Shown here in pieces: positions 52-43,984 of a DNA stretch of 43,984 nt (its first letter is position 1; each line of letters opens with the position of its first letter). The stretch comes from a virus. The notes beneath the pieces were generated by a model. That model made no database searches. It worked only from the letters and a program-made list of their open reading frames with translations, and had not been told where the DNA came from. Location: IMG/VR virus record IMGVR_UViG_3300005590_000017, positions 1-43,984 of that record. The stretch is one strand, 5' to 3'. The translations under genes were made by a program, and so were the position numbers.

Positions 52-317
52 GCCCGGCTGATGGTCACTCGGGCAGCGGATCGGGAGGCGACGAGCCTCC
101 AGCTGGCGGGGAGCCGGTCTCGACCATCGAGACAAGCTCCCTCCCGCCAGGCTCCGCCCTCCTCGTCACCCCGGCGCTGCTCGGCCCGCACCTCTCGGAG
201 GTGCTCGCTGAGCTAGGCCGCGGGCGAAGCGTCCTGCTCGTCGGCAGTTCCCTCGACTCGCGCACCACGCGCGAAGGAACTAGCCATGACGAAAGCGACC
301 GAGAGAGCCAGCGGTAG
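3..317 (+). CDS. int: C-terminal tail of the integrase in the circular (attP) form
   Basis: When the two ends are joined through the shared core, the integrase frame continues here without a stop for 105 codons and ends at TAG 315-317. Codons 52-317 encode an acidic, Gly/Ser/Pro-rich segment, then a hydrophobic-amphipathic stretch (SALLVTPALLGPHLSEVL) and a polar end (ESQR). Third positions are mostly G or C, as in real genes here, which supports coding. There is no good internal start in this frame, so in a lysogen the segment would be untranslated unless ribosomes arrive from upstream. It overlaps the next gene by 32 bases. Whether the tail folds, tags the protein for turnover or controls direction of recombination is unknown. 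Confidence 0.6.
   Translation, partial: QISNLRVTGSSPVGRASPADGHSGSGSGGDEPPAGGEPVSTIETSSLPPGSALLVTPALLGPHLSEVLAELGRGRSVLLVGSSLDSRTTREGTSHDESDRESQR
56..69 (+). repeat. Direct repeat near att core, copy 2
   Basis: GGCTGATGGTCACT starts four bases after the att core and matches perfectly the copy at 43892-43905, on the other side of the core in the circular form. The two copies are read in different codon frames (PADGHS versus WLMVTG), so protein similarity does not explain them. An integrase or excisionase arm site is the likely role (inference). Confidence 0.65.
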
Positions 318-513
318 CTCGCTCTCGACCGAGGGACTCATCCACGCCCTCACGCCCATCTGTGCCCCGAGGGACACAGGGGAGGCGCGACCGATCCTCA
401 TCGCGTTCACCGCCCAGGAGTTCAACCTCCTGAACGAGCTGTGGGGCGAGTTGCACAACGCGCTCGTGGACGAGGCCATCCGTTTCGAGAAGCGCGACCC
501 CGCGCCCTTCTAG
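286..513 (+). CDS. Small early protein, unknown function
   Basis: A 75-residue protein, first gene of the rightward early operon. ATG 286 is preceded by GAAGGAAC, a usable ribosome site. No signal peptide, membrane segment or zinc motif is visible. The middle (AFTAQEFNLLNELWGELHNA) is probably amphipathic helix. Its start lies inside the last codons of the integrase frame of the circular phage, so in that form the two genes would be translationally linked. In the integrated form it is the first phage gene after the tRNA and has no clear promoter of its own. I do not recognise the family. Confidence 0.7.
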   Translation: MTKATERASGSSLSTEGLIHALTPICAPRDTGEARPILIAFTAQEFNLLNELWGELHNALVDEAIRFEKRDPAPF

Positions 514-525
514 GAGGTCGAAGCG

Positions 526-1095
526 ATGGATGCAAAGACACTCGAAGCTCTGGGGCTCTCTTCCGCCGACCTGGAGCAGAAGCTGTTGGACCGACTCGTC
601 GAGGCCGCCATGAACGGCGCGATCTTCGACGAAGAGGGCGAGCCGATCGGGCGCTTGGGGCGCCGGCTCGACGAGGAGATCAAGAAGCGACTCGACGAAG
701 GTATCCAGGCCATCGGCGAGAAGCACGTTCTCCCCAAGGTGGCCGAGATCCTCGAAGGCGTCTGCCTTCAGGCCACGAACGAGTGGGGTGAGGCGAAGGG
801 CAAGCCCATGACCTTCATCCAGTACCTCGTGCAGCGTGCCGAGCGCTACATGCACGAGAAGGTCAACTTCAGTGGCGAGTCCAAAGCTGAGTGCCGCGAC
901 TCCTACTCCTGGAGGGGGGAGCAGACCCGAGTTACCCACCTGATCCACGCGCACCTCAAGTACTCGATCGAGACCGCGCTCAAGACCGCCCTCAAGGACT
1001 TCGACAAGCACGTCGCCGCGGGCCTCGCCGAGACCGTCAAGGCCAAGCTCGAAGAGACGCTCTCGACGCTGAAGAAGCTGGGGGTGAAGGCATGA
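526..1095 (+). CDS. Helical early protein, unknown function
   Basis: A 189-residue, highly charged and mostly helical protein. ATG 526 follows AGGAGG at ideal distance, 12 bases after the previous stop. The N-terminal third (ALGLSSADLEQKLLDRLVEA) and C-terminal third (HVAAGLAETVKAKLEETL) look like amphipathic helices. No enzymatic motif is visible. Its stop overlaps the start of the Rad52-like gene (ATGA), which suggests coupled translation and a possible role in recombination or single-strand DNA handling (inference from position only). Confidence 0.75.
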   Translation: MDAKTLEALGLSSADLEQKLLDRLVEAAMNGAIFDEEGEPIGRLGRRLDEEIKKRLDEGIQAIGEKHVLPKVAEILEGVCLQATNEWGEAKGKPMTFIQYLVQRAERYMHEKVNFSGESKAECRDSYSWRGEQTRVTHLIHAHLKYSIETALKTALKDFDKHVAAGLAETVKAKLEETLSTLKKLGVKA

Positions 1096-2111
1096 AGCTC
1101 ACCTGCAACGGCCACTCCCCCGAGGAGCTGGCGAAGCGCCTCGCCGCCTTCTTCCCCGACGGCGATATCGAGTGGAAGCCCGACCGCTTCATCCCGCTCC
1201 AGGAGAACCGGGGTCGGCACCCAAAGCAGGACGACCCCTGCCGTGCGGTCATGCTGGCCTACGTCACCAACCGCGCCATCCAGGAGCGCCTCGACCAGGT
1301 CGCCGGCCCCGGCAACTGGCAGATTCGATATCGCCGCTGGGGCGACAAGGGCGTCATGGCGCGCCTCGGCCTGCGCTTCGAGCGCGAGGACGGGAGCGAC
1401 TACTGGGCCTGGCGCGAGGACGGGGCCGACGAGACGGCCATCGAGTCCACCAAGGGCGGGATCAGCTCCGCCTCGAAGCGCGTCGGCTCCGCCTGGGGCA
1501 TCGGGCGCTACCTCTACCGGATGCCCGACGCCTTCTGTGAGGCAGTCGCCACCAAGGTCGAGAACTGGCGGATCAAGAGCGGGAGGCTCAAGCGCTGGGG
1601 CGACAAGCCCGCCGTGCCCGTCGCCTTCCTCCCCGAGTTCCAAGGGAAGGACCCCCAGCCCGAGCGACGGCCCGAGCCTCGACGGCAAGAGCCGCAGTCG
1701 CAGCAGACCCAAGCTCCGCAGCAGGCGCAGACCCAGGCGCAGCACGCCGCACCGAACAACGTCGATGACGTCCTGCCGTGGCCGCTGGGCGAAGAGCCCA
1801 AGTGGCTCGACTGGCGCCTGAAGTTCGGCAAGTACGAAGGCGCGACCCATCGCTGGCTCGCGTCCGGGTCCGTCGGCGGCGCGCGGCAGAGCTACATGGA
1901 GTACCTGACCAAGGACGGCCCGCGCCCTCACGAGAACCCCAAGTACGCCGAGAACAACCGGCTCCAGCACGAGCGCTTCCTGACCTGCATCAAGGCCATC
2001 GAAGCGCGCGGCGCCGAGGCCGCGAACGACCAGCGCGACGAGCAGGTCGAGATGTACGGCACGCCAGCCGACGAGCCCGACTACGACCCCATCGACTCTA
2101 CGCCCTTCTGA
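1092..2111 (+). CDS. Rad52/Rad22-family single-strand annealing protein
   Basis: 339 residues. The N-terminal 175 or so match the Rad52/Rad22 annealing fold seen in phages: AYVTNRAIQERLDQVAGPGNW, then EDGADETAIESTKGGIS, then AWGIGRYLY. Such proteins pair complementary single strands during phage recombination. A Gln/Pro/Arg-rich linker (about 187-230) leads to a segment around 240-310 with FGKYEG, resembling the DUF3820 family found in some exonucleases. The extreme C-terminus is acidic and ends DPIDSTPF, much like the tail by which bacterial SSB recruits partners. I chose ATG 1092, overlapping the previous stop, rather than the longer frame from 891, because the family begins here and 891-1091 is covered by the previous gene. 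Confidence 0.88.
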   Translation: MKLTCNGHSPEELAKRLAAFFPDGDIEWKPDRFIPLQENRGRHPKQDDPCRAVMLAYVTNRAIQERLDQVAGPGNWQIRYRRWGDKGVMARLGLRFEREDGSDYWAWREDGADETAIESTKGGISSASKRVGSAWGIGRYLYRMPDAFCEAVATKVENWRIKSGRLKRWGDKPAVPVAFLPEFQGKDPQPERRPEPRRQEPQSQQTQAPQQAQTQAQHAAPNNVDDVLPWPLGEEPKWLDWRLKFGKYEGATHRWLASGSVGGARQSYMEYLTKDGPRPHENPKYAENNRLQHERFLTCIKAIEARGAEAANDQRDEQVEMYGTPADEPDYDPIDSTPF

Positions 2112-2121
2112 GGAGGACCCC

Positions 2122-3129
2122 ATGCAAGAGCAAGCCACCACGCAAGAGGTCTCCCCCGAAGGCGAGGCCCGCGAAATCGACGCCGAGATCATCCGCGCCG
2201 TCCAGTCCTACAGCGTCCAGGACGCCGCGATCGCTGAGCTGCGAGCCGAGTACTCCCTGCTCAAAATCGCCGGACCCGACGACCGCAAGGGATACCTGGC
2301 CGTCTCGGAGGCCCGCAAGCACATGAAGCGCCTGCGCGTCTCCGTGGACAAGACCCGCAAGGCCCTCAACGCCGACGCCCTCAAGTGCCAACGCGCGGTC
2401 AACGACGAGGCGAAGCGCATCGCATCCCTGATCGAGCCCGTGGAATCCGACCTCCAGGCCAAGGAGGACGAATACCAGGCGGCGAAGATGCGCCAGCGCG
2501 AGGAGGAGGAGCGGGCCAAGGCCGCTCGCCTCAAGAAGCGCATGGACCAGCTCGACGCCGTCCGTGCCCACGTCCCCAGCTTCGAGGTCGAGAAGCTCGA
2601 CGACGACGCCTTCGCGGCGCTCCTCGACGAGAAGACTGCCATCTTCGAGGCGGAGCGCGCGCAGGAGGAAGAAGAGCGACGGGCCGCCCTCGCCGAGGAG
2701 AAGCGCCGCGAGGCTGAGCGCCAGGAGCGTGAGGCCCAGGAGGCTGCCGAGCGTGCCCGGGTCGCGGAGGAGCAGCGCCAGGAGCGCGAGCGCCTCGCGG
2801 CCGAGCGGGCTGAGCTGGAGCGCCGGTTCGCCGAGATCGAGGCCGAGCGCGAGAGGCGCGCCACGGCGGAGCGCGAGAAGGCCGAGGCCGAGCGCCAAGA
2901 GCGGGAGGTCGAGGAGGCGAAGCGCCGCAAGGAAGCGGAGGAGCGCCGGCTCGCTGAGCTGGCCCCCCAGCGCGAGAAGGTCGCCGCCTACCTGGAGGCC
3001 GTCCTGCGCGTCGAGGTGCCCGTCTGCGACTACCGCCCCGACGTGATCCTCGCCCGCGCCCGCTTCGTGGAAGAGGTCGAGCGGCTCGCCGAGGCCGACC
3101 CCGAAGCGCAGGAGGTGGGCCGTGGATGA
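2122..3129 (+). CDS. Coiled-coil protein, partner of annealing protein
   Basis: 335 residues. ATG 2122 follows GAGGAGGACCCC. The N-terminal 110 residues (ELRAEYSLLKIAG, then a helix with RVSVDKTRKALNADALK and RIASLIEPVESDLQ) resemble the DUF1351-like phage proteins that commonly stand beside Rad52- or RecT-type annealing genes. Residues of about 110-290 form a very long charged coiled coil rich in Glu, Arg and Ala. A short globular end (EVPVCDYRPDVILARARF) follows. It probably helps the annealing protein or acts in a recombination/replication complex (inference). The Glu/Arg-rich repeats make database hits to unrelated coiled coils likely. Confidence 0.8.
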   Translation: MQEQATTQEVSPEGEAREIDAEIIRAVQSYSVQDAAIAELRAEYSLLKIAGPDDRKGYLAVSEARKHMKRLRVSVDKTRKALNADALKCQRAVNDEAKRIASLIEPVESDLQAKEDEYQAAKMRQREEEERAKAARLKKRMDQLDAVRAHVPSFEVEKLDDDAFAALLDEKTAIFEAERAQEEEERRAALAEEKRREAERQEREAQEAAERARVAEEQRQERERLAAERAELERRFAEIEAERERRATAEREKAEAERQEREVEEAKRRKEAEERRLAELAPQREKVAAYLEAVLRVEVPVCDYRPDVILARARFVEEVERLAEADPEAQEVGRG

Positions 3130-6176: not shown

Positions 6177-6673
6177 GCGGTCTCTCGAAGCAGGGGGCCT
6201 ACGACTGGCTCCGGGCCCGCATCCGTCCGCTTGGCCTCGACCACACGGGGCGAGAGTCCGCGTGCCAGGCCGCCCTGAAGCGCTGGAGCCCGGAGGTCTC
6301 GCCGGACGGCTGGCGCCGCTGGGTTGACTCGTGTCTCCAGCGAGCGAAGCACGAGAGCGCCGAGAAGCCGTCGAGCGTGCTCATCGCGGCGCTGCGCGAG
6401 GACCCCGGCGATGCGCTGGAGCCTCCCCCGCCGCCCGCCCATCGCCCAGGGCAACCGCGGGCCGAGGACGACGCACGGCGCGCGCAGGAGCGCGAAGCCG
6501 AGCGCGACCTCCAGCGCCAGCCCAAGCCCCCGCTCTCGCTCGTGCTCCCGCTCTGCCGGGAACGCGGGATCTCGGGGCGGGAAGCCTGGGACCTGATCGA
6601 CGCCGAGTGGAGGCGCCAGGGCTGCCCCTGGTCCGAGGACTTCGACCCCCAGCCCCTCGAGGTGAGCGCATGA
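6173..6673 (+). CDS. Early protein next to DUF1376 gene, unknown function
   Basis: 166 residues from ATG 6173, overlapping the previous stop (ATGA). The N-terminus (GAYDWLRARIRPLGLDH, then ALKRWSPEVSPDGWRRWVDSCL) is helical. A Pro-rich and charged linker (EPPPPPAHRPGQ and an Arg/Glu/Ala run) follows, then a small C-terminal helical domain (LPLCRERGISGREAWDLIDAEW). The two-domain form beside a DUF1376 protein fits a helicase-loader or initiation accessory, but I see no Walker motif and do not recognise the family. Confidence 0.65.
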   Translation: MSGLSKQGAYDWLRARIRPLGLDHTGRESACQAALKRWSPEVSPDGWRRWVDSCLQRAKHESAEKPSSVLIAALREDPGDALEPPPPPAHRPGQPRAEDDARRAQEREAERDLQRQPKPPLSLVLPLCRERGISGREAWDLIDAEWRRQGCPWSEDFDPQPLEVSA

Positions 6674-42040: not shown

Positions 42041-42774
42041 GCTCCCAAGCTACCCATCTGCCTGCCGACGACCAAGCCGCGACACACCTCCCCGCAAGAG
42101 CCCGCCCCAGCGCCGCGAGCCACACCTCGAGCTCGGAGCCAGCCACCCCACGGATGTTGAGTGACGTACCTCCGGGGGCTTCTCGAGGAGCGCGGGGCGC
42201 GTGTGTCCCCCGTGGGGTCTCCAGGGGGGCCGGGGGGTCAGCGAGGGGCGGAGGCGGCGCGTGCAGCGTCTCGTGAGGCTCATGCTGCCTGGTGACGCCC
42301 AGCTTTCCGGGAGGGCTGGAGCTGGCAGGCGTGGTGAGCGAGGGGAGCTGAGAGCCGTCAGCCTCTGAGGGAGAGCCTGAGAGGGGACGCCTTTTCGCGT
42401 CGTGGTGCTCGTCCTCTGCTTGCTGCACTGTCGCTGAGGAGCCCGAGGCTTGCTGCTGATGCGCTAGCGATCAACCGGCCGTGCTGCGCGAGTGCGCTTC
42501 GCTACGGGCCGCCTGAGCTGGTGAGGCTCGGAGAGTGGGGAGAGCCGGCCGCCGTCCCAACGGTGCGGAGAGTTGGCGTGATAATCAAGAGTGGACGTTG
42601 TTGGGAGTGCCGGGAATGGGAAAGGGGGGTTGACGGTTCGCGCTGTCTTGGGTTGGGGTTGGGGTGATATGGCTGAGATCCTGAGGGAATTGGCCGTGAC
42701 CTGGGGTTGCTCTTCGGAGTCCGTCATCTGTAGGCCCTGCTCGCCTTGGGGCCTGAGACATCGAGAGGAGCAAC
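42041..42774. promoter_or_regulatory. Integrase control region, largest non-coding stretch
   Basis: 734 bases without a convincing gene. Frames here have poor codon bias. It should hold the leftward promoter for the zinc-ribbon operon and the rightward promoter for int. Seen: runs of C/G around 42195-42240, TTGACG at 42630 with no fitting -10, GATAAT at 42580 with no fitting -35, two G-rich clusters (42603-42629 and 42648-42664), and a hairpin AGGCCC/GGGCCT near 42732-42754 just before the int ribosome site. Confidence 0.5.
42603..42664 (+). other. Potential G-quadruplex cluster before int
   Basis: The plus strand has GGGAGTGCCGGGAATGGG followed by AAA and six G (four G-tracts with loops of 6, 3 and 3). 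Farther on GGGTTGGGGTTGGGG follows. Both can form G-quadruplexes in DNA or in the int leader RNA. Located 110-170 bases before the int start. Confidence 0.5.
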
Positions 42775-43984
42775 ATGGGGGAGCGTGAATTGGTGCGGGT
42801 GGTCCGGCCGGTGGCTGGGGACCTGCGGCTATCGAGGGTGGCGCAGCTGTACGTGGAGGAGCTGCGGGGGCGGGTGAGCGTGCGGCACGTCCAGGTGGTT
42901 CGTGGGGTGCTCGATGCTTGGATCGGTGCTGTTGGGGACCTGGCATCGAGCGAGGTGGACGAGGCGCTGGGGATCGCCTACCGGGCAGACGCGGTGCGGC
43001 GTGGGCTCGCGGTGAGGACGGCGAACAACCACGTCCAGACGCTGGAGAGGGCGCTTCGGTGGGCGAGGCGGGCGGGGCACATCGAGCGGAATGGGCTGGC
43101 GGAGGTCGAGAAGCTCCCAGAGAGGGAGAGGGACAAGAAGAAGAAGCGGCGGGCGCTGACGGACGAAGAGCTCGTTCGCTTCGTGGAGACGGCGAGGGAG
43201 GACGATCGGAAGGCGATGGAGGCCGGGCGGCGGAAGGTGCCACAGACGGCGCTGTGGCTCGTGCTGCTCGGGACAGGGGGGCGCCGGAAGGAGACGCTGG
43301 GAGTCAGGTGGCGGCACTTCAACTTCGAGCCCGATGGGCTGCCCGAGGAGCTGGAAGGGGCTGCGACCGTGCGCTTCGTCGACACCAAGAACGGCAAGGA
43401 GAGGGTCGTGCCAGTGGCTCCCGACGTGGCTGCAGAGGTGCGCGCGCTGCGCGAAGTGCACCGGGAACTCCTGGGGCGTGAGCCGCGCGCCGGAGACCAC
43501 GTCTTCCTCTCCCCTCAAGGTCGCCCATTCGTGGGCGAGTCACAGGGGAACACGCTGCGGCTCTTCTACCGGGTGCTCGAGCGCGCGGGCATAGAGAGAA
43601 AGGTGGACGGGCGCTCGATCGACCTTCACGCCTGCCGGATGACCTCCAACGCGCGCTACCAAAGAGCCAACGTCGAGACCGGCACGCGACAGAAATTCCT
43701 CGGGCATTCCGACCCGAAGCTCACCGAGAATATGTACGGTGATGTTGGCGAGGCCGAGAGCTTCGCTGCTCTTCAACAACTCGTAGAACGGGAACTCCGA
43801 CGACTCGGCGCGACTGACGACGAGATCGAGGAGGCTCTGAGGGCCATCAGTTCTGGCAGCGACTCCTCCGCCGTCGCTCGCTTGATGGACTGGCTGATGG
43901 TCACTGGCGGAGAGCATCCCGGTTCGAGTGACGATCAGATTTCTAATCTGAGGGTCACAGGTTCGAGTCCTGTCGGGCGTGCCA
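42775..43984 (+). CDS. int: Tyrosine recombinase (integrase), open at right end
   Basis: ATG 42775 has GAGAGGAGCAAC upstream. The N-terminal 110 residues form an arm/core-binding helical domain (VAQLYVEELRGRVSVRHVQ). Catalytic residues of the family are all present: Arg170 (GTGGRRKETLG), Lys205 (DTKNGK), His285 and Arg288 (LHACRMTSN), His311 (FLGHSD) and Tyr321 (ENMYGDV). The frame has no stop before the window end: it passes the att core (from codon 387) and stays open. In the circular phage it continues to base 317, giving 491 residues; in a lysogen it reads into host DNA. This protein integrates the phage at tRNA-Arg(UCU). Confidence 0.93.
   Translation, partial: MGERELVRVVRPVAGDLRLSRVAQLYVEELRGRVSVRHVQVVRGVLDAWIGAVGDLASSEVDEALGIAYRADAVRRGLAVRTANNHVQTLERALRWARRAGHIERNGLAEVEKLPERERDKKKKRRALTDEELVRFVETAREDDRKAMEAGRRKVPQTALWLVLLGTGGRRKETLGVRWRHFNFEPDGLPEELEGAATVRFVDTKNGKERVVPVAPDVAAEVRALREVHRELLGREPRAGDHVFLSPQGRPFVGESQGNTLRLFYRVLERAGIERKVDGRSIDLHACRMTSNARYQRANVETGTRQKFLGHSDPKLTENMYGDVGEAESFAALQQLVERELRRLGATDDEIEEALRAISSGSDSSAVARLMDWLMVTGGEHPGSSDDQISNLRVTGSSPVGRA
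43892..43905 (+). repeat. Direct repeat near att core, copy 1
   Basis: GGCTGATGGTCACT ends 28 bases before the att core and is identical to 56-69 on the other side of the core in the circular phage. Nearby, GGTTCGAGT at 43921-43929 repeats the T-arm sequence inside the core (43960-43968). Both may be recombinase binding sites. Confidence 0.65.
43934..43984 (+). repeat. attR core: copy of tRNA-Arg(UCU) 3' end
   Basis: Fifty-one bases identical to 1-51. In the lysogen this is the displaced host tRNA 3' end at the right junction; in the phage it is attP, adjacent to and inside the integrase frame. Identity ends exactly at CCA. Confidence 0.93.

Follow-up and report, generated by a model that had tools for sequence, protein, structure and literature searches.

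A candidate attachment site inside the integrase gene of a T7-like podovirus

Does a phage whose attachment site lies within its own integrase gene make one enzyme before integration and another afterwards? This question is raised by the window studied here, the whole 43,984-nucleotide stretch of the viral record IMGVR_UViG_3300005590_000017. The window represents a T7-like podovirus that encodes a single-subunit RNA polymerase, a T7-type head–tail connector and a terminase, as well as an Erf-like annealing protein, and the phage is probably temperate. Its closest relatives by terminase (L022–L025, 58–78% identity) contain no match to its integrase gene, int; two of them, L022 and L023, are fragments. 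We consider it probable, at about 0.72, that attP sits inside the 3′ part of int and that the phage makes a self-altering integrase like that of phage Mx8. The features on which this reading draws are, in order from int across the two window ends:

42775–43933, + strand: tyrosine integrase gene, constant part (open reading frame, Pfam, PHROG, positions of the catalytic motif)
43928–43958, no strand: imperfect inverted repeat centred on the anticodon TCT (43942–43944), GTGACGATCAGATT / AATCTGAGGGTCAC, 12 of 14 pairs
43934–43984, + strand: att core, right copy, the 3′ part of a tRNA-Arg(UCU) (identical to 1–51; tRNA match)
1–51, + strand: att core, left copy (Rfam tRNA model, 5′ truncated; tRNA-Arg matches)
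52–317, + strand: putative Int tail in the circular form, codons for residues 404–491, with stop TAG at 315–317 (open frame; codon score)
286–513, + strand: opening gene of the left operon, encoding 75 aa (gene call; homologue in the relative G004, tblastn E 1e-5)

The integrase gene and the attachment core

The int reading frame starts with the ATG at 42775 and meets no stop up to the end of the window at 43984. Its product matches Pfam PF00589 (Phage_integrase) over residues 128–324 (E 4e-11) and PHROG 1, integrase (E 1.7e-35). Within the Pfam domain it has the Arg...His-x-x-Arg...His...Tyr arrangement of tyrosine recombinases, with a complete catalytic set (Arg170, His285, Arg288, His311 and Tyr321) that lies entirely upstream of the core. 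The Tyr321 codon is at nucleotide 43735, so the preliminary description was right to place this residue on the constant side. Its count of 387 phage-encoded residues needs a small correction: there are 386 whole codons before the core, and the first base of codon 387 is the last base before it; the remaining coordinates and arithmetic stand. GC content by codon position in int is 0.74/0.46/0.82, and the codon score of residues 1–339, against the codon usage of the phage's well-identified genes, is low (0.04). Upstream of int, about 730 bases (42041–42774) hold no convincing gene and are possibly its control region; no sigma-70-like site was found there.

The two ends of the window carry an exact 51-bp direct repeat, bases 1–51 being identical to 43934–43984, and the window ends fall exactly on the ends of this core. 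The Rfam tRNA model recognizes the core with 35.8 bits (model positions 25–71, 5′ truncated), from the anticodon arm to CCA; its best matches in annotated phage records are tRNA-Arg genes, and the loop TTTCTAA gives the anticodon TCT. The core is thus identical to the 3′ part of a tRNA and adjoins int, as is expected of an attP that targets a tRNA gene. Moreover, the int frame runs through the right copy, translating it as (D)QISNLRVTGSSPVGRA. Of the three frames in which the core can be read, two hold a stop and int uses the third, an outcome with a one-in-three chance. The repeat, the tRNA match and the open reading frame together confirm the earlier claim that an attP core lies inside the integrase gene with the frame open through it. 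Searched as 49 exact bases, the core had no match in other viral contigs, and with up to two mismatches it had none in 398 Pseudomonadota genomes; no lysogen, attB or attR was encountered.

The inverted repeat centred on the anticodon suggests where recombination might occur. Seven of its pairs are internal to the tRNA itself, and the five outermost join 43928–43932 to 43954–43958, with the left side formed by phage int codons outside the tRNA-derived core. This extension into phage-only codons fits a crossover site written inside int codons, and we predict that the repeat probably marks paired core-type Int binding sites and the crossover. Anticodon-centred sites are one main class in Islander (PMC4383910). 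Two further repeats, 43836/43947 and 43921/43960, were weighed as possible arm or duplicate sites and rejected, since a hand estimate puts the number of such chance matches in this stretch at about one.

The reading frame beyond the core

When the circle is closed over one copy of the repeat, int continues in frame for 491 codons to the TAG at 315–317, which reproduces the 491-residue circular Int of the preliminary description. The last 88 of these codons form the tail. By chance, a frame of this length stays open in 24% of Markov sequences with the local composition; among dinucleotide shuffles of the tail sequence the share is 39%. Chance readthrough of core and tail together is roughly 1/8 to 1/12. 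The openness of the tail frame alone is therefore weak evidence, whereas its codon content is stronger. Scored as above, the tail reaches −0.08 per codon in the int frame versus −0.46 and −0.59 in the other two forward frames, and only 0.3% of shuffles combine an open frame with an equal or better score, which suggests that the tail is probably coding. The 'coding-like third positions' reported earlier hold only in part: GC by codon position over 54–284 is 0.74/0.64/0.78, and the middle position is unusually GC-rich. The well-identified genes have 0.61–0.77/0.37–0.57/0.87–0.97, so that by this measure the tail is less coding-like than the structural genes. In codon score, int and tail look alike and both are unlike the structural genes. 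Taken together, we think it quite likely that the tail is translated, and give even odds that it has a selected function.

The first 30 or so residues of the tail are rich in Ser, Gly and Pro. A single-sequence AlphaFold model, of low confidence (pLDDT 64.7), has about 34 unstructured residues followed by a possible strand–helix–strand segment. The preliminary description proposed looking for integrases with a matching C terminus; none came to light, as residues 404–491 have no homologue in viral contigs, annotated phages, Pfam or PHROGs. Separately, the integrase of Myxococcus phage Mx9 (L084; OQ709411, 18795–20441) ends in an excisionase-like HTH_17 domain (residues 489–537, E 3.5e-11), possibly a built-in direction factor. 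A helix-turn-helix reading of the present tail, an idea taken from Mx9, found no support in the domain search or the fold.

The last 32 bp of the tail (286–317) overlap the gene at 286–513, which has a likely ribosome-binding site, GAAGGAA. Its homologue in the relative G004 occupies the same place, adjoining an Erf-like gene, and the stretch before it, ahead of the left operon, contains no int match, no tRNA match and no convincing gene. The int–attP block was therefore probably acquired or lost as a whole. Integration would separate the left operon (genes 286, 526 and the Erf-like 1092; window 52–3129) from int and leave it directly downstream of the host tRNA-Arg gene.

Relatives of the integrase are few and distant. 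In searches for relatives of int or of the tail, annotated phages gave no match at 1e-5 (at a limit of 1, the best had E of at least 0.03), plasmids gave one match (E 8e-4), viral contigs 12 distant relatives and genome contigs six; none was found at 1e-20 in 398 Pseudomonadota genomes. The nearest relative with a readable gene, on contig G013/L070, is 32–34% identical over residues 19–336. It ends about 36 residues past its catalytic Tyr without running through a tRNA core, indicating that the extension over residues 340–386, the core and the tail are not general to integrases of this type. Homologous integrases that stop before the core had been named in advance as grounds for doubting the overlap; the L070 enzyme is in part such a case, but its low identity limits what it says about this one. 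The same contig carries a tRNA-Arg(CCT) gene (6554–6630, minus strand; ARAGORN).

A probable self-altering integrase and its alternatives

As in Mx8, the attP core lies within the int reading frame, after the codons for the catalytic domain, and it follows from this position that integration would replace the C terminus of Int. On the circle, a single gene would produce the 491-residue protein, with its final 88 codons beyond the core. Recombination by Int between the core and a tRNA-Arg(UCU) gene of the host would probably take place at the anticodon loop. In the lysogen, the left copy of the core would restore the host tRNA at its 3′ end, while the right copy would fuse int to host sequence downstream of the tRNA. 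The prophage form would then consist of residues 1–386, 17 core residues and a host-encoded end, and excision would bring back the long form. The two forms may differ in activity. A bolder version is that the tail is a separately acquired module that only the circular form possesses, for example one that governs direction or stability, so that in this T7-like phage integration acts as a genetic switch of Int. Integration would also cut the left operon (genes 286 and 526 and the Erf-like gene) off from the int promoter and place it behind the host tRNA-Arg promoter. We regard this version as doubtful.

The arrangement could have less meaning than this. Int may need nothing past residues ~340–386, GC-rich DNA may simply lack a stop until 317, and the region after the core may be an attP arm or a promoter region with no selected protein function. 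Such an incidental overlap would sit comfortably with the frequency of open frames of this length here (24–39%), the tailless L070 integrase, the G004 stretch devoid of a convincing gene and the lack of tail homologues in viral contigs and annotated phages. Against it, the int frame is far superior to its two alternatives in codon content and outscores 99.7% of shuffles, and we judge the incidental reading somewhat unlikely. The repeat itself might also have another origin, as circular contigs often end in short assembly overlaps and T7-like virions have direct terminal repeats that are packaged with the linear genome (244 bp in LUZ100). Neither kind of repeat should coincide both with the 3′ part of a tRNA-Arg up to CCA and with the edge of int. 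Contig ends placed exactly at core ends are, by contrast, what would be expected of an assembly interrupted by several kinds of junction, attP, attL, attR and attB, in one sample. An origin in assembly or packaging thus seems extremely improbable.

Integration might alternatively be suicidal, as in the archaeal SSV type, inactivating Int and locking the prophage until intact Int arrives from elsewhere. What recommends this comparison is that SSV-type integrases also have attP inside the gene (PMC8371274). In the window, however, integration would leave the start codon and the full catalytic set together on the phage side, and the prophage form is expected, like that of Mx8, to retain its catalytic domain. 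We therefore think it very unlikely that integration inactivates Int. The self-altering, Mx8-like integrase remains our preferred reading, and it also bears on annotation: int genes on circular contigs that are cut at the att core will be called with an incomplete C terminus.

Comparison with known systems

In the integration-dependent immunity of the mycobacteriophages BPs, Brujita and Charlie, integration alters the repressor gene that holds attP. The preliminary description saw this as the nearest parallel, and the likeness is genuine in that integration alters the attP-containing gene, there the repressor and here int. Mx8 of Myxococcus xanthus is closer, however, as its attP lies in int itself and its genetics are published: according to a review, integration yields a recombinant int whose 3′ end is new, and the altered integrase is still active with changed specificity (PMC6070905). 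In Islander (PMC4383910), too, the integrases of Mx8 and SSV are described as reaching across attP. As a control, the Mx8 int frame (AF396866) was examined and contains a tRNA T-arm at about codon 458 of 575, on the opposite strand.

Like Mx8, the window phage has its attP within the codons of a tyrosine integrase, and integration is predicted to give its int a new 3′ end, as it does in Mx8. The part beyond the core is also about 100 residues long in each. The T-arm in Mx8, which we take to be that of tRNA-Asp, is antisense to int, whereas the tRNA-Arg(UCU) of the window is in sense. Mx8 is not T7-like, and it is in Mx8 that the activity of the altered form has been assayed. The two integrases have no significant similarity (blastp E 0.068 over 50 residues); close common descent is not supported, and they would work alike without being close homologues. 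The arrangement thus looks like an occurrence independent of Mx8. It is not a new kind, as Mx8 is the precedent. Having an att site inside the integrase gene is also a feature of the archaeal SSV-type integrases (PMC8371274), but there the N-terminal part is split from the catalytic domain, whereas in the window the start codon and the whole catalytic set precede the core, and only a C-terminal tail would be exchanged.

Among T7-like phages, P-SSP7, S-TIP37, LUZ100 and HTVC019P likewise combine this phage type with a tyrosine integrase, and where attP has been described it is tRNA-derived. LUZ100 and its relatives have integrases near the polymerase gene. In the cyanophages P-SSP7 and S-TIP37, a tRNA-Leu attP lies downstream of int, unlike the attP of the window, which is inside the int frame; the literature we searched contained no report of a T7-like phage with attP within int. 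In bacteria the arrangement is known chiefly from Mx8, and it appears here, apparently independently, in an unrelated type of phage. If the tail does have a function, phages would have arrived repeatedly, by placing attP in int, at a link between the prophage state and the form of the recombinase that needs no separate regulator.
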